Origin: a virus | Length of the DNA: 64,000 bases | Reading direction: 5' to 3' (one strand) | Virus record (IMG/VR): IMGVR_UViG_3300042345_000282 | Location: 1 to 64,000 of that record | In this document: positions 362 to 59,453 of the stretch, piece after piece | Layout of the letters: each line of letters starts with the position of its first letter | Numbering within the stretch: the first letter of the stretch is position 1 | The notes under the pieces: model-generated | Databases searched by the model: none | Seen by the model: the letters and a program-made list of their open reading frames with translations, nothing else | What the model was told of the DNA's origin: nothing | Position numbers and translations under genes: made by a program

Positions 362-601
362 ATGGATAAACTAAAAAAAGCATTTGACATGGCTGGCGAC
401 TTTTTGCACATGATCATGGATCTAGGTATTAAGTTGTTAGCAGTAGGTGTCATACTACAGATATTGTTTGGACCAGCAGTTCCGTTCATGCATTTAGATG
501 TAGTAGGTAATATAACTGCGTTCGCAGGTGCTTTGGGTGAGAAAGGTCTTGTAGGCCTAGTCGCACTAGCAGTACTATTTTGGGCTTGGAATAAGAAGTA
601 A
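362..601 (+). CDS. Small two-helix membrane protein (79 aa)
   Basis: The chosen ATG at 362 has a GGAGG ribosome site 9 nt upstream; an upstream in-frame start at 326 has none. Two hydrophobic segments (residues about 16-36 and 62-76) flank a short loop, and the protein ends in charged WAWNKK. The size and topology would fit a phage membrane protein such as a holin or a host-membrane modifier, but nothing proves this. A terminator follows directly, making it monocistronic behind a late promoter. Confidence 0.65.
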   Translation: MDKLKKAFDMAGDFLHMIMDLGIKLLAVGVILQILFGPAVPFMHLDVVGNITAFAGALGEKGLVGLVALAVLFWAWNKK

Positions 602-626
602 TCTATACCCAACTTAAGTAGCATAG

Positions 627-654
627 CCCGCTTGAGAGATCAAGCGGGTTTTTT
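627..654 (+). terminator. Rho-independent terminator
   Basis: Perfect 9-bp stem CCCGCTTGA / TCAAGCGGG with a 4-nt loop, followed by TTTTTT. It ends the 362-601 transcript before pstS. Confidence 0.9.
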
Positions 655-691
655 GTAATAGAAATGCAATAAAAAAATTTGTTGATTTCCG

Positions 692-698
692 TAAATAG
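692..698 (+). promoter_or_regulatory. Late promoter (TAAATAG) of pstS
   Basis: T4-type late element 24 nt before the pstS ATG; GGAG at 711-714 is the ribosome site. No PhoB-box-like pair of CTGTCA repeats is seen in this interval. Confidence 0.5.
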
Positions 699-722
699 TG
701 TCGTAATCAAGGAGATTATGAC

Positions 723-1709
723 ATGAAAAAATTAGTAGCATTTAGTTTAGTAATATTAGCAAGCGCGGGTGCGCAAGCAAGAGATCAAATCAATATTGTA
801 GGTAGTTCAACAGTATATCCTTTCACTACAACTGTTGCAGAACAGTTCGGTAGAATTGGTAAATTTAAAACCCCGAAAGTTGAAAGCACTGGTACCGGTG
901 GTGGTATCAAGTTGTTCTGTAATGGTGTTGGTCCACAACACGCAGATGCGGTCAACGCATCCAGACAGATGAAAAAGTCTGAGTTCGACACATGTGCGAA
1001 AAATGGTGTAAGTGAAATACTTGAGATCAAGATTGGTTATGACGGTCTTACTATCGCTGAAAACAAAGCAGGTAAACTATCAGGTCTAAGTCGTAAAGAT
1101 GTTTATCTAGCATTAGCAAAGACTGTACCAGGACCAAATGGTGCTATGATACCTAATCCATATAAGACATGGCGTGATGTAAATCCAACTCTTCCTGCTG
1201 TGAAGATTGAAGTTTACGGACCACCTCCAACAAGTGGTACTAGAGATAGTTTCCATGAGTTGTATATGGAAGCAGGTTGTGAGTTAGAGAACAAGAAAGC
1301 CTGTCATGCTATTCGTGAAGATGGCGCATATGTTGAAGCAGGCGAGAATGATAATCTAATCGCACAGAAGTTGATAAGCAACGTGAATGCTTTGGGTGTT
1401 TTTGGTTATAGTTTCCTTGAGGAAAATCTAAACAAACTAAAAGGTCTAAAGATTGAGGGCGTAGAACCAAAATTTGAGACTATTAGCGATAGTAGTTTCC
1501 CGGCAAGTCGTCCATTATTCGTTTACGTAAAGAAAGCACATATCGGTGCAATTCCAGGATTGCGTGAATTTGCTGACGAATATGTAAGTGTCAGGGCTTT
1601 AGGCGAAGATGGGTATCTAGCAGAGCGCGGCCTAGTGTCATTAGACAAGGCTGAACTTGCTAAAAGCCGTCAAGAAGTTAAGGTTTTAAAGAACTTTAGC
1701 CCAAAATAA
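723..1709 (+). CDS. pstS: Phosphate ABC transporter periplasmic binding protein PstS
   Basis: 328 residues with a Sec signal peptide (MKKLVAFSLVILASAGAQA) and the PstS-family signatures: GSSTVYPF near the mature N-terminus, STGTGGGIKLFC, NASRQMK, GYDGLT, TSGTRDSFHE and SRPLFVYVKKAH. The family binds inorganic phosphate in the periplasm and delivers it to the host PstCAB permease. Phage pstS genes are established in marine cyanophages, where they are thought to sustain phosphate uptake. Here it is followed by a porin gene, which suggests an outer-membrane-to-periplasm route. The upstream signal is a phage late element, not a recognisable host pho box. Confidence 0.93.
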   Translation: MKKLVAFSLVILASAGAQARDQINIVGSSTVYPFTTTVAEQFGRIGKFKTPKVESTGTGGGIKLFCNGVGPQHADAVNASRQMKKSEFDTCAKNGVSEILEIKIGYDGLTIAENKAGKLSGLSRKDVYLALAKTVPGPNGAMIPNPYKTWRDVNPTLPAVKIEVYGPPPTSGTRDSFHELYMEAGCELENKKACHAIREDGAYVEAGENDNLIAQKLISNVNALGVFGYSFLEENLNKLKGLKIEGVEPKFETISDSSFPASRPLFVYVKKAHIGAIPGLREFADEYVSVRALGEDGYLAERGLVSLDKAELAKSRQEVKVLKNFSPK

Positions 1710-1741
1710 AGTAGTATATTTTAATGACCCCTCAGGCCTGT

Positions 1742-1748
1742 TAAATAC
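1742..1748 (+). promoter_or_regulatory. Late promoter (TAAATAC) of porin gene
   Basis: T4-type late element 63 nt before the porin ATG, giving a long structured leader. Confidence 0.5.
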
Positions 1749-1751
1749 TAT

Positions 1752-1790
1752 ATGTCTTTGAAATAGGACATGATGCCACTCACGTGGCAT
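1752..1790 (+). promoter_or_regulatory. Two stem-loops in the porin mRNA leader
   Basis: ATGTC/GACAT (1752-1756 with 1767-1771), then a perfect 7-bp hairpin ATGCCAC-TCAC-GTGGCAT (1773-1790). The AAGGAG ribosome site follows about 8 nt later. No T-run, so mRNA stability or translational control is more likely than termination. Confidence 0.45.
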
Positions 1791-1811
1791 AACAACAAGG
1801 AGATATAAAAT

Positions 1812-2786
1812 ATGCGTAAAGCACTTATAACATTAGTTATGTTGGGATCACTATCTACTGCGGCTCTCGCACAAGATGTGAAAATTAATGGTAACTTCGG
1901 TTATCGTTTTGATTCAGTCGAAGCAGGAACTGCACCTAAGTCTGAAAAAGATCGTATCAGAGCAGAGTTACTATTGAATGCTAAAGTTAACGATAAGACA
2001 ACTTTGGTATTTGGTACTAGAACTGGTACATTCAATTCATCTTGGGATGACATGGGCGGTAACGCCAATTCTAAAGATATGGGTCTACACTTAGCATATG
2101 TTGAGTACGCCGCTATGGATCAAGTCAAGGTTCGCCTTGGTAAGATGCATCAACCTTGGGCAAGTTCACCAAGTCTATTTTTTGACCGTGATATCAAGCC
2201 AGAAGGTCTAGCAGTAGCGTTTGCTCATAAATCAGGATTGTTCGCTAATGCGTCTTCATTGAAGATCGTAGAAGGCGGTGCAGCCGATGATTCTAGAGTA
2301 CAGAGCCTACAAGTTGGCTTAAAGAAGGATGTTGGAGCATTGTCATTGACAGGTGCTGCCGCATTACACAATCACAGCATCAAGCATGTTGCTGCCGGTG
2401 GTGTAGGCTCAGATGTGACTCTTCAGCAAGCATTCGGTGAAGTTGGTGTTAAGGTTGCTGGTCTTCCAGTAGCCGGTTTCGTAGACTTCATGCGCAACGA
2501 CAAGGCAAATGCTGATAACCAAGCACTAGCATACGGTGTGAAGGTTGCCAAAGGCAAGTGGGATGCTTCAGTATTCCATCAAAAAGTCGAGGCAAATGCA
2601 CAGTATGGTTTGTGGCATGATTCTGACTTTGCAGGCGCACAAGGTAATCACAAGGGCTATGGCCTAACTGCTGGTTACAGAGTCGCTAAGGGTTGGAAGG
2701 TCAACGCTAAGTATTTCGATGTTGAGCGAGGAGCCAACAAAGAAGATTACAAGCGTCTACAATTAGACTTGAACTACATGTTCTAA
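1812..2786 (+). CDS. Outer-membrane porin
   Basis: 324 residues: signal peptide (cleavage near AALA-QD) followed by alternating beta-strand pattern throughout and a C-terminal Phe after LDLNYM, the usual signal for BamA-dependent outer-membrane insertion. It resembles Gram-negative putative/phosphate-selective type porins, but the substrate cannot be read from sequence. A phage-encoded porin beside pstS suggests raised nutrient entry across the outer membrane during infection; an alternative is altered surface exposure to block superinfection. AAGGAG ribosome site; terminator immediately downstream. Confidence 0.85.
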   Translation: MRKALITLVMLGSLSTAALAQDVKINGNFGYRFDSVEAGTAPKSEKDRIRAELLLNAKVNDKTTLVFGTRTGTFNSSWDDMGGNANSKDMGLHLAYVEYAAMDQVKVRLGKMHQPWASSPSLFFDRDIKPEGLAVAFAHKSGLFANASSLKIVEGGAADDSRVQSLQVGLKKDVGALSLTGAAALHNHSIKHVAAGGVGSDVTLQQAFGEVGVKVAGLPVAGFVDFMRNDKANADNQALAYGVKVAKGKWDASVFHQKVEANAQYGLWHDSDFAGAQGNHKGYGLTAGYRVAKGWKVNAKYFDVERGANKEDYKRLQLDLNYMF

Positions 2787-2813
2787 TCGAACATCTAAAT
2801 TCAGTCAAGATCA

Positions 2814-2844
2814 GGGGAGATAGAAATATCTCCTCTTTTCTTTT
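2814..2844 (+). terminator. Rho-independent terminator after porin
   Basis: 7-bp stem GGAGATA-GAAA-TATCTCC followed by TCTTTTCTTTT. Confidence 0.85.
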
Positions 2845-2877
2845 ATATGATAAGTAAATCTGTTAAAATAATGAAAT

Positions 2878-2967
2878 GGAAGTGTGGCAGAGTGGTTGAA
2901 TGCTCTAGTCTTGAAAACTAGCGATTCCGCAAGGGGTCCGTGAGTTCGAATCTCACCGCTTCCACCA
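2878..2967 (+). tRNA. tRNA-Ser (UGA)
   Basis: 90 nt with CCA encoded. Acceptor GGAAGTG pairs with CGCTTCC (one G-U), anticodon loop CTTGAAA gives anticodon UGA, there is a class II long variable arm, and the T arm is GTGAG-TTCGAAT-CTCAC. The discriminator base before CCA is A, whereas bacterial tRNA-Ser usually has G. It reads UCA/UCG-type serine codons and may support phage codon use. Confidence 0.93.
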
Positions 2968-2976
2968 ATCAAACTT

Positions 2977-3273
2977 ATGACAATCAAATACGAAGATTTA
3001 CAACCACATGTTGATATGCTCATAGACGCCCTTGAGAACAGAGGGGCAAGTAGTAGCGGATTACCTAATGAACAAGTATATCCATTTGCTACGAAGTATA
3101 GGAGTTTCTTGCAAGAAGTGAGAGATAGACAAGTATCTAGATATAATCTAGAACATTTTTTGGCTGAAAATCACGAAGCGATAATGAAAGTCACTAATCA
3201 GCCTTTTAGGTCTGAACAAATCCTAGGAGCATTGAGAACATATTTTTTCAAAGAATTCATGAGACCTAAATGA
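2977..3273 (+). CDS. Hypothetical protein (98 aa)
   Basis: Starts 10 nt after the tRNA-Ser and overlaps the reductase gene by 4 nt (ATGA), so it is probably co-transcribed and translationally coupled with it. Predicted helical, with no signal peptide or membrane segment. No family recognised. Confidence 0.7.
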   Translation: MTIKYEDLQPHVDMLIDALENRGASSSGLPNEQVYPFATKYRSFLQEVRDRQVSRYNLEHFLAENHEAIMKVTNQPFRSEQILGALRTYFFKEFMRPK

Positions 3274-4007
3274 TCACAGAAACAGTTACATGGGTGCATC
3301 ACTGGAGCGATAGAACTTTTAGTTTTAAAACGACTAGAGATCAAGGATTTAGATTTTATGCAGGTGAATTTGCCATGATAGGTCTGCGTGTAGATAACAG
3401 AAATATACTACGTGCGTACAGCGTAGTCAGTCCACCATGGAAAGATGAATTGGAATTTCTCAGTATCAAGATACAAGACGGTGACCTTACTAGCAGACTA
3501 CAACATATCAAAGTAGGCGATGAAGTCATACTAGCAGAAAAGACTACAGGAACATTACGCAACGATGCATTGATTAAAGGCGGCGAACTATATATGCTAG
3601 CCACCGGAACTGGACTAGCGCCCTTCATGAGCCTAATACGTGATATCGAAACTCTTGAGACTTGGGATAAAATAAATATAATACATAGTGTGAGAGATAA
3701 AAAGGATCTAGCATATTATGATGATTTGATCAGTAGTTTCAAAGACGGAGAGCCCGAATTATTTGAGTTGATAGAACCCAAATTGACATATAAGCCTATC
3801 ATAACGGGCGCCGGCGAGAAAAGAATCACGGCTCAACTATATGATAATGACTTGACGATTGATTACAGCCGTGATAAAATCATGCTATGCGGTAATCTAG
3901 AATTCAATCAGGAAGTTACTGATTGGTGTATATCAAAGGGCATGACTGAAGGTAGTTTACGAGAGCCCGGAACTTTTGTCATCGAAAAGGCATTTGTAGA
4001 GAAATGA
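3270..4007 (+). CDS. fpr: Ferredoxin/flavodoxin-NADP(+) reductase (Fpr type)
   Basis: 245 residues with the order of the bacterial Fpr family: FAD-binding barrel with RAYSVVSP (about residue 50) and DGDLTSRLQHIKVGD, then the NADP domain with LATGTGLAPF (about 111-120), KRITAQ, MLCGNLEF and the C-terminal VIEKAFVEK typical of proteobacterial enzymes. It moves electrons between NADPH and ferredoxin or flavodoxin in the cytoplasm. This phage also encodes an FdxA ferredoxin (41031-41360) and a heme oxygenase (31142-31690) that could use such electrons. ATGA overlaps on both sides place it in a short operon. The C-terminal signature suggests acquisition from a proteobacterium. Confidence 0.9.
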   Translation: MITETVTWVHHWSDRTFSFKTTRDQGFRFYAGEFAMIGLRVDNRNILRAYSVVSPPWKDELEFLSIKIQDGDLTSRLQHIKVGDEVILAEKTTGTLRNDALIKGGELYMLATGTGLAPFMSLIRDIETLETWDKINIIHSVRDKKDLAYYDDLISSFKDGEPELFELIEPKLTYKPIITGAGEKRITAQLYDNDLTIDYSRDKIMLCGNLEFNQEVTDWCISKGMTEGSLREPGTFVIEKAFVEK

Positions 4008-4369
4008 ACAATTTTGAGATTGATGAACAATATATTACTGATGTAACAGTTAGGACTGAACACGATTTCATCGTAGATCGTAATAATCCTACACCCGAAG
4101 AAATCTTTAAAGTACTCAAAGGTTGGGACAAAGTTGTCAGCATCGGTAGCAAAGACCACGATGAGTTTACTAAGTTGCGTAATCAACTTGAAGAACAAGG
4201 TTACATCAAAACCGAACGCGGTTGGTGGAATGGCGATACTGTATTGAAGCCATTCTATTTGAACGGTTGGCGATTCAAAAAAAATCATAGATTTCCTTGT
4301 GCGGCGGCACTTAGCAATAGTATTAAGTGTGCTAAGAAATATAAATGGAAGAGCATCAGCAGTCTATGA
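4004..4369 (+). CDS. Hypothetical protein (121 aa)
   Basis: ATGA overlaps with fpr upstream and the SGNH gene downstream. The first half is acidic and the C-terminus basic (KCAKKYKWKS). Cytoplasmic, no recognised domain. Confidence 0.65.
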   Translation: MNNFEIDEQYITDVTVRTEHDFIVDRNNPTPEEIFKVLKGWDKVVSIGSKDHDEFTKLRNQLEEQGYIKTERGWWNGDTVLKPFYLNGWRFKKNHRFPCAAALSNSIKCAKKYKWKSISSL

Positions 4370-5181
4370 AACAGATACTAATAATGGGAGACAGTTGGGG
4401 AGTACCTGAATATTCACTAACACCGGGCGAACTATTATCTGATCCTACTAATGTCGTTCGTCCAAAATTTTGGTTAGATGCTGAACCAAATTATACAGAC
4501 GGTATATATCATACTGACCAATATTTACGTGGGCTAGGGTATGATGTTTATAATTCTGCGCAGGGCGGTATTTCAAATGTACAAGCGATTAGAAGAGCGA
4601 TAAGTTGCATCAAAAACGAAAAATTAAATCCTGATTTAATCATTTGGTTTCATACAGCATTGTTTAGAGACTATCAGCATTTTCAAACGAAAATTAGTTT
4701 ATTAAAACCTTATGAACAGGCAGTAGATGATTTAGCAGAAGCGGTGTATGGTAAAATGGCAAATTTCTTAAAAGAAAATAATGACATACCATTTATTGCT
4801 GTAGGCGGGCAAGCACCATTAGTTAAACACGTATTTGATAAGTATTTAAATCCTTTTTTCCGTGTAGATGATTGGAGAAGTGAAATACTGCAGGAAAAAT
4901 TGCCCGAGTTTCAAGCATTCGGATCAGAACCTATGTTACATTCTTGGACTTGGCATCCTGAGACTATCAAAAAACTGTTGTCAATATCAGACCTCTATCG
5001 CGATAAGATGACTGCTTTATCTAACTCTGCTCAAATAGAAGATCCTCTATTTCCTGATGGTTGTCATCCTGGAAGAACACCTCATTATGAACTCACTAAA
5101 AAAATTCATGATGCGATCAGTTGGTTTTATAAGAATAATCAAAAGCATGATTACATAAAAACTCCGGGTAACGCACTATGA
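4366..5181 (+). CDS. SGNH/GDSL hydrolase-like protein 1
   Basis: 271 residues. ATG 4366 (ATGA overlap with the previous gene) is preferred over 4345 because the conserved start MKQILIMGDSWG then matches the neighbour's. GDSWG near the N-terminus is block I of the SGNH fold, AQGGISN fits block II/III, and DGCHPG near the C-terminus supplies a possible Asp-His pair. SGNH enzymes are esterases acting on acyl or O-acetyl groups; in a phage a surface-polysaccharide O-acetyl esterase is plausible but unproven. It has no signal peptide. Tandem paralogue of the next gene. Confidence 0.7.
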   Translation: MKQILIMGDSWGVPEYSLTPGELLSDPTNVVRPKFWLDAEPNYTDGIYHTDQYLRGLGYDVYNSAQGGISNVQAIRRAISCIKNEKLNPDLIIWFHTALFRDYQHFQTKISLLKPYEQAVDDLAEAVYGKMANFLKENNDIPFIAVGGQAPLVKHVFDKYLNPFFRVDDWRSEILQEKLPEFQAFGSEPMLHSWTWHPETIKKLLSISDLYRDKMTALSNSAQIEDPLFPDGCHPGRTPHYELTKKIHDAISWFYKNNQKHDYIKTPGNAL

Positions 5182-5927
5182 AAAATATATTAATCGTAGG
5201 AGACAGTTGGGGAGTACCTAACTACGTTAAAGGCTATAATACAGTACCTGAAGATCACACAGAATTTCGACTAAGGGCTATGGGATATAATGTCTTCAAT
5301 TACTCATTGAATGGCGGAAGCAATGTCGATACAATAAGTTATGCTATATCTGCTATAGAAAACAAAGAACTAAGAGTGGATGAAGATGTAAGTTATAAAA
5401 AGAAAACATATGCTGATTCTGGTCCCGAATTCTTACCTGACCCAAATTATCGCGGTGAAAAGATAGACTGGATAATTTGGTTTCACACTGAGTCTATTCG
5501 CGCCTCAGTACAGCCTATAATGTTTCGTTGGATAAAGATTGAAGATATACATGAATTAGGGTGCAAGACTGCATATAGAGCATTCAAGCATTTAGTAGAA
5601 ATTTGCGGAAATCCAAAAACAGTAGTGATAGGTGGGCAGGCACCGGTAGAACCCATGCTATATGATTATCATAATCCAACATATATCATAGAAGATTGGC
5701 GTAGTGAGATTGTGGGTAGAAAGTTACCAAGATGCATATCGCTTTCTAGATTGGATATGATAGAACGATCATATCATTCAATAGATGAAAAACTTGAAAT
5801 AATGAATCTACATGCTGAGATATATGATGCTATGAACAATAAAGAGCAATTTTTTGATGCTTGCCACCCTGCCGCGATACCACATAAACATTTAACGAAT
5901 AGATTACATACTTGGTTTTCAGAGTGA
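5178..5927 (+). CDS. SGNH/GDSL hydrolase-like protein 2
   Basis: 249 residues, sharing with its neighbour the start KNILIVGDSWGVP, LNGGSN, DWIIWFHTE, VIGGQAPV, EDWRSEI and a final DACHPA. These fit SGNH blocks I, II/III and the catalytic Asp-x-x-His. ATGA overlap with paralogue 1 indicates tandem duplication and coupled translation. Substrate unknown. Confidence 0.7.
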   Translation: MKNILIVGDSWGVPNYVKGYNTVPEDHTEFRLRAMGYNVFNYSLNGGSNVDTISYAISAIENKELRVDEDVSYKKKTYADSGPEFLPDPNYRGEKIDWIIWFHTESIRASVQPIMFRWIKIEDIHELGCKTAYRAFKHLVEICGNPKTVVIGGQAPVEPMLYDYHNPTYIIEDWRSEIVGRKLPRCISLSRLDMIERSYHSIDEKLEIMNLHAEIYDAMNNKEQFFDACHPAAIPHKHLTNRLHTWFSE

Positions 5928-30818: not shown

Positions 30819-31145
30819 TCAGTATGGACTAAATGAGCTTCCGCATCCGCAGGTTGTTTGTGCTTGTGGGTTACTAATACTAAATCTGCTGCCGTTTAAG
30901 TCTTCTTTATAGTCTACTACAGCATTTTCTAGATACTGCATCGAAATAACATCGACCAGGACACTTGAGGATAATGCAGGAATTTCCCAATCGTCTTCTG
31001 CTTTTTCAGTAGTAATCTCAAAACCATATTGAAAACCCGAGCATCCGCCCCCTGTAACATACATTCTCACATGTGTGTTGGGGCTATTCTCTGCGGAGAC
31101 TATCTCTGCTAGTTGTTTTTGAGCGGATTCTGTTATTGTGATCAT
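30819..31145 (-). CDS. A-type Fe-S cluster carrier (IscA/ErpA family)
   Basis: 108 residues from the ATG at 31145. Cys35 (TGGGCSGF), Cys99 and Cys101 (TTCGCGSSF) reproduce the three cluster-binding cysteines and spacing of IscA/ErpA. It would receive an Fe-S cluster and hand it to client enzymes; clients in this window include ferredoxin and two radical SAM proteins. A leaderless-type late element sits directly upstream, and the start also overlaps the heme oxygenase stop (ATGA). Confidence 0.9.
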   Translation of the reverse strand: MITITESAQKQLAEIVSAENSPNTHVRMYVTGGGCSGFQYGFEITTEKAEDDWEIPALSSSVLVDVISMQYLENAVVDYKEDLNGSRFSISNPQAQTTCGCGSSFSPY

Positions 31146-31690
31146 TGTGTATTTATTTGAACATCCCACAATTCTGTGAAAATACTCATAAAATAATCAA
31201 AACCTAGATTGGCCTCATCTGCTAGATCATTGCTTAGTTTATCATTAAACGCTTTAATCAATCCGGCTCTGTCAGTAAATTGATACATGTATCCGTTTCC
31301 AGGAACTACCCTAGCCATCAGTTTGCCACCGTATAAGTCACCCATATGTCTGACATATACGTGAGCCATGAGTAATTTAGAGTTTTCCTTGCTTAGTTTA
31401 TCTAGATGTGCTAGATATGCTATAGTGCTGGGCATCAAATCACGATCAACTATGATACCTAATTCTTCCATATCTTTACAGATAGCATTATATCGGTCTA
31501 GATCAGGCATGCCCTCAGTAATACCATGCTCGTTGCTTAAATCTTCTATCTTTTTATAAATGTGTTTGAGTTCATACAGATAATCTATATACATCACATC
31601 GTTAAACTTGCCCTCAAACATTGTTTGAATCAATGGTAGTTTTTCGATTTCCCTATGTTTAGCCCAAGTAGCATCTTTTAAAATAGTCAT
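31142..31690 (-). CDS. Heme oxygenase
   Basis: 182 residues. Proximal His12 (WAKHREIEKLPLIQTMF) and the distal-helix motif VRHMGDLYGGKLMAR (family GDLSGG) are both present, and the length fits bacterial biliverdin-producing heme oxygenases. It cleaves heme to biliverdin, CO and Fe2+ using seven electrons, commonly from NADPH through Fpr or ferredoxin. Cyanophages use it for bilin pigments; with no photosynthesis genes here, iron release from host heme is more likely. Forms an operon with the Fe-S carrier (ATGA overlap). Confidence 0.88.
   Translation of the reverse strand: MTILKDATWAKHREIEKLPLIQTMFEGKFNDVMYIDYLYELKHIYKKIEDLSNEHGITEGMPDLDRYNAICKDMEELGIIVDRDLMPSTIAYLAHLDKLSKENSKLLMAHVYVRHMGDLYGGKLMARVVPGNGYMYQFTDRAGLIKAFNDKLSNDLADEANLGFDYFMSIFTELWDVQINTQ
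31149..31155 (-). promoter_or_regulatory. Late promoter, leaderless type (TAAATAC ACA ATG)
   Basis: 3 nt before the ATG of the Fe-S carrier, inside the 3' end of the heme oxygenase gene. Confidence 0.5.
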
Positions 31691-52707: not shown

Positions 52708-52714
52708 ATATTTA
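52708..52714 (-). promoter_or_regulatory. Late promoter, near-leaderless (TAAATAT AGTTA ATG)
   Basis: Overlaps the TAA stop of clpP; 5 nt before the ATG at 52702. Confidence 0.5.
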
Positions 52715-53305
52715 CACGACCCTCTTGTCGAGAATCTTATCAGCAAGGCCGTATTCCAATGCCTGCTGTGCGCTCATGAAAAAGTCACGCTCCATGTCTT
52801 TAGCAAGTTCTTCATATGTCTTGCCTTTGCTATTATGCTTGACGTAGATGTTGGTTAGATTCTTTTTCATCTCAAGGATTTCCTTGACTTGAATCTCCAT
52901 GTCAGTTGCTTGACCACGTGCGCCGCCACTTGGTTGATGAATCATGTGACGGGCATTAGGTAGAATCATTCGCTTACTTGCGGCACCTGCTTGTGCAAGC
53001 AAACTACCCATGCTACAAGCCTGTCCCATGACGATAGTTGAAACGTCTGGTTGAATGAATTGCATAGCATCATAGATAGCCATACCAGCAGTCACGCTAC
53101 CACCTGGACTATTGATGTAAAGGCTGATATCTTTTTCAGGATTTTCTGATTCAAGATAAAGTAATTGGGCAACGATAAGATTTGCCATCTGATCGTGGAC
53201 CTCACCCTCAAGTAAGATCACACGATCACGTAATAGACGGCTATAGATATCGTAACTACGCTCACCGCGGCTTGTCTGCTCAAGGACTATTGGAACTAAA
53301 CTCAT
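52712..53305 (-). CDS. clpP: ATP-dependent Clp protease proteolytic subunit ClpP
   Basis: 197 residues. Catalytic Ser98 (GQACSMGS), His123 (RHMIHQ) and Asp170 (AKDMERDFF) with [15 protein letters not shown]. Forms a double-heptamer chamber that degrades proteins fed by ClpX. The phage also encodes ClpX and the adaptor ClpS, so a phage-made ClpXP is possible. Early-type promoter with an inverted repeat upstream. Confidence 0.95.
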
Positions 53306-57464: not shown

Positions 57465-57911
57465 TTATTTATTGTAGGAAATTGCAATCTTCTTGGGTTG
57501 CAACTCGTCAGGTACTTGACGTTCAAGGGTGATTCCCATGATACCATTGTTAACAACGGCGTCAGATACTTCTACATGGTCGGCGAGAGTAAAAGTGCGG
57601 GTAAAATTACGGGCACTGATACCACGATATAGATACTCAACATTACTGTCAAGATCCACGCTCTGGCTACCCTCAATAGTAAGTAGGTTCTTATCCACAG
57701 TCACGTTGATATCCCCTTCCTTGAAACCAGCAACGGCCAATTCGATAACAAACTTGTTGTCGCTATGTTTCACAATATTATATGGGGGATAGTTTGTGTC
57801 TTTTTGCTGATTGGATAGTCTTAGAATTTCATCAAAGACTCCATCAAATCCGACTGCAAACTTGTGAATCGACGGAATGTCGAAGGAACGTAGTGTTAAT
57901 GTATTTGTCAT
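57465..57911 (-). CDS. Small heat-shock protein Hsp20 (IbpA-like)
   Basis: 148 residues: N-terminal RSFDIPSIHKFAVGFD, alpha-crystallin domain with YPPYNIVK, IELAVAGFKEGDINVTV, YLYRGISARNFTRTFTLAD and the C-terminal LERQVPDELQPKKIAI including an I-x-I-like end. ATP-independent holdase. Hsp20 genes are known in T4-like aquatic phages. Late element at 57973-57979. Confidence 0.9.
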   Translation of the reverse strand: MTNTLTLRSFDIPSIHKFAVGFDGVFDEILRLSNQQKDTNYPPYNIVKHSDNKFVIELAVAGFKEGDINVTVDKNLLTIEGSQSVDLDSNVEYLYRGISARNFTRTFTLADHVEVSDAVVNNGIMGITLERQVPDELQPKKIAISYNK

Positions 57912-58017: not shown

Positions 58018-58239
58018 TTAAAACTTAGACTTAGGGAGATTTTGTTGGTCTATTTGTTTTTTCCAACGTCTTTTGGCTAATTCTCTAGCGAGTTTCTTTT
58101 TGACGCTAGGTTTAGTATATGTCTCTCTATCTTTAAGTTCTAATAGTAAGCCGGACTCCTGCACCTTTTTCTTTAGTTTTCTTAGTGCTTTTTCTACGTT
58201 TCCGTCTTTGACTATTACTTTTCTACCGTATAAATTCAT
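58018..58239 (-). CDS. rpsU: Ribosomal protein bS21
   Basis: 73 residues. RKVIVKDGNVEKALRKLKKKVQESG, then KPSVKKKLARELAKRRWKK follow the bS21 layout along its length. bS21 sits near the anti-Shine-Dalgarno site of the 30S and aids initiation; phage copies are known in large phages. It overlaps clpX (ATGA) and may help recruit phage mRNAs. Confidence 0.9.
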   Translation of the reverse strand: MNLYGRKVIVKDGNVEKALRKLKKKVQESGLLLELKDRETYTKPSVKKKLARELAKRRWKKQIDQQNLPKSKF

Positions 58240-59453
58240 ATTAATGTCTCAGGATTTTTCACAAGGTCCTGAATAATATTTATCTCCGCAACGTCACTTT
58301 CCTTGTATCTGCTGATGTTAAACATGTGGGGCATGAGTACTCGTTCTAGTTCGCTTTGTATGCCCCTAGCACCGGTTTTTAACTTAAGACAGTTATCAGC
58401 CATCTGTTCTATAGCACCCTTGCTAAATTTGAGTTTGATCTTGTCGATGCTGAATAGATATGTATATTGATCAATTAGATTGTTTTTGACCTTGGTCATG
58501 ACTTCGACTAACTGTTTCTTATCTAAATCCTCTACAGATATAGAAGTAGCGAATCTACCAACAAATTCAGGTATCAAACCAAATCGTGTCAAGTCGTCCG
58601 GACTTACTCTATCTAAGAAACTTTCATCAGTATTTGGCTTTACTTCAGCATTGAAGCCTATGCTGGTTCCCTTGATGCGAGACTTGACGATATCGTTCAA
58701 TCCTACAAACGCACCGCCCGCTATGAACAATATGTTCCTAGTATCAATCATATCCATCTTGCCGTCAGGGTGCTTTCTCCCGCCATTAGCAGGAATACGA
58801 CAACGTGTTCCTTCTATCAGTTTCAGTAGTGCTTGCTGAACGCCCTCACCACTAACGTCACGGGTGATACTAGTGCTTTCGCTTTTACGTGCGATCTTGT
58901 CAATCTCATCGATGAATATGATTCCACGTTCGGCTAGTTGTATATCTCCACCGGCTTCTTGTAATAACATAGCGATCATGCTTTCGACATCATCACCTAC
59001 GTAGCCCGCTTCAGTTAAACTTGTAGCATCGGCTATGACAAAAGGAACACGCAAAAACTTAGCGGCTGTCTTAGCCAATAAGGTTTTACCGGAACCAGTA
59101 GGACCTAGCAACAATACATTACCTTTTTGAATCTCAAGATTATCCGGCGGATGCATGATACGCTTATAATGATTAGCGATAGCGACAGACAAGGTAACTT
59201 TAGCGTTATGTTGCCCGACTACATGCCCATTTAAGTGATCATAAATGTTTAGGGCATCTACATCTCTTAACGCCTCTAACATCTGATGTTGTTTCTCATC
59301 ATCAGGCTTTATGTCTTTACTAACAAGATCGTGGCATAGATACGTGCAATAATCACATATTGCTACCTCACCGGACACAATTAATTTTTTTCTTTTATCC
59401 TTATGGGTACCACAAAAAGAACAGGTTTCTAAATGTTTTTCTTCATCACTCAT
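58236..59453 (-). CDS. clpX: ATP-dependent Clp protease ATP-binding subunit ClpX
   Basis: 405 residues. N-terminal zinc finger (CSFCGTHKDKRKK..CDYC), Walker A GPTGSGKT, pore loop GYVGDDVE, Walker B FIDEIDKI, RDVSGEGVQQALLKLIEGT, the ClpP-docking IGF tripeptide (TSIGF), and FGLIPEFVGR. Complete and likely active; unfolds tagged proteins for ClpP, whose gene lies 5 kb away. Operon with bS21. Confidence 0.95.
   Translation of the reverse strand: MSDEEKHLETCSFCGTHKDKRKKLIVSGEVAICDYCTYLCHDLVSKDIKPDDEKQHQMLEALRDVDALNIYDHLNGHVVGQHNAKVTLSVAIANHYKRIMHPPDNLEIQKGNVLLLGPTGSGKTLLAKTAAKFLRVPFVIADATSLTEAGYVGDDVESMIAMLLQEAGGDIQLAERGIIFIDEIDKIARKSESTSITRDVSGEGVQQALLKLIEGTRCRIPANGGRKHPDGKMDMIDTRNILFIAGGAFVGLNDIVKSRIKGTSIGFNAEVKPNTDESFLDRVSPDDLTRFGLIPEFVGRFATSISVEDLDKKQLVEVMTKVKNNLIDQYTYLFSIDKIKLKFSKGAIEQMADNCLKLKTGARGIQSELERVLMPHMFNISRYKESDVAEINIIQDLVKNPETLI

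Follow-up and report, generated by a model that had tools for sequence, protein, structure and literature searches.

A pstS gene adjoining a porin gene in a viral genome raises the question of where such a pair came from, and whether the host or the phage switches it on. The DNA analysed here (the window) comprises the initial 64 kb of an IMG/VR virus record 100,327 bp in length (40% GC); all elements of the locus given with coordinates below are on the plus strand. A gp43-like polymerase tail at the right end of the record, which matches the DNA polymerase region of the Pelagibacter phage Mosig, relates the virus to T4, as does a gp45-like clamp at the same end, recognised by eye. Relatives bearing the same pstS-porin pair contain gp23, gp45 and gp55; gp55, the late sigma factor, is present in G014, G017 and G021, and a search of the window's record, a genome fragment, did not find it. 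Within the overall explanation set out below, which we consider probable as a whole, the virus would be a T4-related phage and its host a Gram-negative aquatic bacterium.

The initial annotation had placed pstS next to a porin gene, and both are intact ORFs with Pfam matches (723-1709 and 1812-2786). The product of pstS (328 aa, with a signal peptide) matches PBP_like_2 (PF12849) with E 1.4e-47 and 163 bits against a cut-off of 27, can be aligned over its full length to 9jwy, a phosphate-binding protein of solved structure (E 1e-83), and carries the ligand-loop motifs GSSTV, TGTGGG and SGTRD, which are present in nearly all of the aligned set. By sequence it is a PstS-family phosphate-binding protein, predicted to be periplasmic; at 154 bits it falls below the cut-off of 206.6 for the NCBIfam subfamily TIGR02136 and was therefore not filed there. 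The dN/dS ratios are 0.10-0.17 for pstS between close relatives and 0.10-0.30 for the porin, the latter being also the range for both genes together, and indicate purifying selection on the phage pair.

The 324-aa porin matches Porin_5 (PF16930) with E 2.8e-12 and 46.4 bits (cut-off 22) and also Porin_4 (E 3.2e-6). Its AlphaFold model is a 16-strand barrel, predicted to lie in the outer membrane (pLDDT 82.5), for which the best solved fold matches are the Veillonella OmpM1 porin barrel (TM 0.73) and general porins; OprP and OprO are absent from the top 50. Against the OprO/OprP family PF07396 the window porin scores 16.5, under the cut-off of 20.9, which is narrowly passed only by the porin of locus L011 (21.7). 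Because the net charge of the phage porins ranges from -7 to +6 and the fold matches favour general porins and OmpM1, anion selectivity is not indicated; an assignment based on charge was dropped, as net charge gave no clear anion signature. Phosphate selectivity of the window porin we regard as unproven. Its link to phosphate comes from the gene neighbourhood in bacteria, where 28 of the 30 best porin loci adjoin pstS, pstC, pstA, phoU or phoR, and by this measure it would be a Pho-regulon-linked porin. The earlier suggestion that the porin belongs with the phosphate genes is thus supported at the sequence level.

Neither PHROGs nor the annotated phages of INPHARED gave a porin match, so that the comparison had to draw on IMG/VR, scans of which yielded 29 pstS loci and 7 porin loci. 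The porin lies directly downstream of pstS (2-102 nt) in 21 of the 22 viral loci with enough sequence, some of which are near-duplicates; the exception, L028, has a 91-aa ORF in its place. Among annotated phages, a close PstS was seen in a single genuine phage, Mosig. Acinetobacter "phage MD-2021a" was not counted as a phage, since it carries a full pstS-pstC-pstA-pstB set together with metabolic genes and resembles bacterial chromosome contigs; its records in the phage collection (CAKLQF020000007.1 and CAKLQH020000006.1) hold amino-acid metabolism genes too. In a quick tree of 102 PstS sequences, 20 phage sequences group together in one clade (SH-aLRT 99) with L055 as its sister (support 98), and 21 phage porins also form a single clade (support 100). 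The L055 genome, a MAG, carries the label Proteobacteria bacterium and is of freshwater or pond origin judging from the isolate name only. Its genes are arranged in the order phoR-like gene, phoU, pstS, porin, pstC, pstA, pstB, with a 13/14 Pho box before pstS, and the porin was found in 43 of 79 relatives of this genome. Taken together, the single phage clades, the sister position of L055 with its pst operon and the 28 of 30 Pho-linked bacterial porins suggest that the phage pair most likely represents the outer half of a pst operon, captured and since placed under phage transcription. On the simplest reading, pstS and the porin were captured once, pstCAB and the Pho box were lost, and the pair then spread among phages.

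Host control was addressed by scanning the 250 nt upstream of pstS for CTGTCAT-N4-CTGTCAT, the sole consensus scanned systematically, from which that of the host may differ. The best match in the window was 9/14, with about 8.8 expected by chance, in agreement with the earlier remark that no host Pho box is visible. Across 30 phage pstS upstream regions, the window and its duplicate L013 being counted together, the mean was 8.77/14 against 8.88 for shuffled sequence and no region exceeded 10. The same scan of 79 bacterial pstS genes gave a mean of 10.1/14 against 8.7 shuffled, with at least 11 in 25 of the 79 and 14 in one. CTTA-N7-CTTA does not occur in window positions 601-1815. Pho-box prediction in phages is described as unreliable and may fail either way, and PhoB binds one cyanophage promoter in which no Pho box can be recognised (PMC10976474). 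The initial annotation had taken cyanophage pstS to be under PhoBR control, which agrees with P-SSM2, whose pstS is cited as PhoBR-controlled in PMC10976474, but does not hold uniformly: for nine cyanophage pstS genes, Sullivan et al. describe "no single regulatory solution" (PMC3037559).

TAAATA is the most enriched 6-mer at -70 to -5 of ORF starts in the window's record (26 genes, 4.0 expected), and is enriched at the same positions in G014 (29 against 4.6 expected), G017 (34 against 5.3), G005 (26 against 2.4) and Mosig (42 against 9.9). It precedes the major capsid gene gp23 in G014, G017 and G021, though not in G005. As noted earlier, pstS and the porin each have a TAAATA of their own (692-697 and 1742-1747), the latter kept in L007, L008, L009, L011 and L012. 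A further element (317-322) precedes the upstream neighbour, a small membrane ORF of 79 aa (362-601) which occupies the same place in L008 and L012 and has no family match in Pfam or PHROG. The extended TATAAATA is present at neither the pstS nor the porin site. A strong intrinsic terminator with an 11-bp stem and a T run (625-650) would insulate pstS from upstream transcription, and a sigma-70-like site was looked for ahead of the gene and not found. These elements fit T4-type late promoters, and the two genes would accordingly be candidates for late transcription. Separate elements are, however, a feature of the window's lineage and not universal: most relatives have an operon arrangement with only 2-28 nt between pstS and the porin, and about a third of the pstS copies have TAAATA upstream, about a third a conserved TATATAC, while about a third lie directly after a PlcP-like gene. 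Of the proposed phage late-type control, the replacement of the Pho box by TAAATA thus stands at the sequence level, and the separate elements turn out to be lineage-specific. Nine loci (L014, L015, L016, L020, L021, L028, L033, L037 and L041) share a conserved TCTATATACTGA(C/T)TC...GGAGTCA upstream of pstS, a region that consists of the TATATAC element and then a hairpin in which the Shine-Dalgarno sequence would be concealed. TATATAC, as found in the L014/L016/L020 group, does not look like a second general promoter motif in G009 and G011, where its upstream occurrences are few.

The two stem-loops that had been seen in the porin leader were recovered (1752-1771, ATGTC...GACAT, and 1773-1790, ATGCCAC...GTGGCAT; leader fold z -4.2). 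All six relatives retain stem-loop 2, in which both sides of a pair have changed from A-U to G-C in L008, and five of six have stem-loop 1, with a long loop insert in L011 and L012. In the minimum-energy fold of the window leader, the 5' end pairs with the Shine-Dalgarno region and loop 1 is not formed. Besides the terminator, two hairpins went beyond the initial annotation: a terminator-like one 3' of the porin (2813-2836) and a perfect 10-bp hairpin in the pstS leader with the Shine-Dalgarno sequence AAGGA in its loop (699-723, folding z -4.9). The expected late start of pstS, at about 703, falls within the 5' arm of the latter, so that late RNA would fold the hairpin only partly and read-through RNA fully. 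The leader of the T4 lysozyme gene has a hairpin arrangement which this one resembles. Late-start and read-through folding were compared for 122 TAAATA genes, a comparison in which longer RNAs are biased towards pairing. Opening of the ribosome-binding site was +0.31 for pstS, +0.33 for the porin and +0.37 for the plcP gene of G017 (mean +0.09), which places these three near the top; the pstS genes of G014 and G017 do not rank there. This is suggestive, and only that, of a late-start RNA that frees the ribosome-binding site. Upstream of pstS in L025, L026, L038 and L030, the TAAATA lies between inverted arms of the GTCTCCG...CGGAGAC type, and pairing of the Shine-Dalgarno sequence is expected there in read-through RNA only, as in T4 lysozyme.

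In the close relatives of the window, the small membrane ORF, the porin and tRNA-Ser frame one common slot. The tRNA-Ser(tga) gene (2878-2967), which closely follows the porin in L007, L008, L009 and L012 as well, marks this slot; its content is pstS in the window and a PlcP-like phosphoesterase with a glycosyltransferase (GT2 or GT4) in the other four. The six porin loci L007-L012 are without pstS and four carry the phosphoesterase-glycosyltransferase pair instead. On the T4-related contig L011, a 1063-aa TonB-dependent-receptor-like protein (2463-5654; Pfam OMP_b-brl_4 7e-39, CarboxypepD_reg and Plug) is encoded directly upstream of the porin. The order plcP-pstS-porin occurs in L017, L019, L029, L031, L035 and L180, and pstS-porin-plcP-agt in L030, a 188-kb T4-like record. 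The plcP/agt pair is absent from the window's record.

A scan for viral relatives of the phosphoesterase gave 401, and about 50 of the 80 kept are followed immediately by a GT4 gene, in most cases with an overlap. Such plcP-like and GT4 (Agt-like) pairs lie at L030:8396-10149, L012:4088-5835 and L007:4241-5860 and in about 50 of L135-L210. LpxH was rejected as the identity of the phosphoesterases on score (42-60 bits, far under the cut-off of 134). Bacterial homologues of the phosphoesterase adjoin a GT4 with FPSxTDTFG, a motif published for Agt (PMC8231724); GRVSxEKN and FPS[KR]xDT[FY]G occur in almost every phage GT4. In bacteria, PlcP and Agt form a lipid-remodelling pair of phosphate starvation (PMC4796936). 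The phosphoesterase of the related phages is by these comparisons PlcP-like, distinct from LpxH and paired with an Agt-type GT4, and the widespread viral pairs possibly encode membrane lipid remodelling; no publication on viral PlcP turned up in the openly available literature. The larger story, in which one piece of a pst operon was probably captured and later traded against genes of lipid remodelling, goes beyond what the initial annotation had in view.

We consider it probable that the locus is a phosphate cassette which derives from one capture from a pst operon and is expressed from TAAATA late promoters without host PhoB. A proteobacterial pstS-porin pair would have been taken in a single event, with pstC-pstA-pstB left behind, and would be transcribed from the phage promoters. 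The porin would admit phosphate to the periplasm, where phage PstS would pass it on to the PstCAB of the host; this supply would sustain late DNA synthesis regardless of the Pho state of the host and presumably raise phage yield. Other phosphate-economy genes in the slot of relatives were counted for a phosphate cassette; TAAATA missing from pstS in two thirds of relatives, and gp55 not found in the fragment record, were counted against late promoters. TAAATA could be a chance AT-rich match, the genes being read from upstream or from a host-type promoter, and the motif is indeed short and lacks its extended form at both sites; however, the excess of 26 over 4.0, the porin element kept in five of six close relatives, the terminator and the missing sigma-70-like site before pstS speak against this, and we hold it to be very unlikely.

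Regulation of pstS by host PhoB through a divergent site missed by the consensus scan, as in cyanophage P-SSM2, appears quite unlikely. The cyanophage promoter bound in spite of its unrecognisable Pho box (PMC10976474) is a point in its favour, and the Pho box of the host may differ from the consensus; yet the same scan detects boxes at many bacterial pstS genes, including sister L055, and the 72 nt between the terminator (650) and the ATG (723) are mostly taken up by TAAATA and the leader hairpin. It is likewise unlikely that the porin modifies the cell surface, replacing or masking a receptor porin against superinfection, or acts as a general nutrient pore, with PstS an unrelated neighbour. 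Porins without pstS in L007-L012, the TonB-dependent receptor beside the porin in L011 and the general porins among the best fold matches would suit such a role. Phage PA-2 offers a precedent, as it bears a porin that brings about lysogenic conversion. Such a role is at odds with the 28 of 30 bacterial homologues within pst/pho operons, with pstS-porin adjacency held across diverse phages and with the phosphoesterase and glycosyltransferase that replace pstS in four of the six pstS-less loci.

The captured phosphate cassette that we favour has several partial counterparts, while no report of a phage pstS-porin cassette was found in the openly available literature. Cyanophages such as P-SSM2 and S-SM1 (PMC3037559, PMC10976474) are likewise T4-like and encode PstS without pstCAB, sometimes accompanied by a second phosphorus gene, phoA. 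Their PstS belongs to another lineage, no cyanophage record matching even at E 1e-3, and no porin has been reported with it, whereas the window has a porin, a late-type element and no detected Pho box. The T4-like Mosig (EXVC030M, MT647606) has a pstS 48.6% identical, which adjoins a PlcP-like phosphoesterase annotated as UDP-2,3-diacylglucosamine hydrolase and lacks a neighbouring porin; in the tree, the Mosig protein does not join the clade that contains the window PstS and other phage sequences but sits on a long branch of unsure placement, and so was probably, with the same uncertainty, a separate acquisition. Closest is the proteobacterial pstS-porin-pstC-pstA-pstB operon of L055 and relatives, which shares gene order and homologues with the phage pair and is its apparent source; it has a Pho box and a full ABC transporter, of which the phage retains two envelope parts only. 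The glnK-amtB-ompL cassette of oxygen-minimum-zone viruses (PMC8115048) also joins captured nutrient-transport genes to an adjacent porin, but serves nitrogen instead of phosphorus, with another porin and a predicted Bacteroidetes host. The bacterial plcP-agt operon (PMC4796936, PMC8231724) is mirrored in related phages, where the plcP-like and agt-like genes overlap and the region of the published Agt motif is present; unlike in bacteria, this pair has been added to, or swapped with, pstS and porin.

Cyanophage pstS has so far been viewed as a host-regulated helper. The window cassette adds an outer-membrane step, its single origin is traceable to a bacterial pst operon, and the host's starvation switch has apparently been traded for a late switch of the phage. 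Together with the PlcP-Agt pairs of relatives, it becomes testable whether phages remodel host membrane lipids for phosphate. We tentatively propose, as a possibility short of even chances, that many T4-related phages of aquatic bacteria carry interchangeable modules for complete PhoB-independent phosphorus salvage, with porin and PstS for import and PlcP and Agt for lipid stripping. Phosphate would then be stripped from host phospholipids, glycolipids substituted, and membrane phosphorus passed to phage DNA late in infection. Elsewhere in the window there are genes for a ClpP-like protein (52712-53305), a ClpX-like protein recognised by eye (58236-59453) and a small heat-shock protein (57465-57911), the last matching that of Mosig, and for a haem-oxygenase-like protein (31142-31690) with 26% identity to the haem oxygenase region of Mosig.
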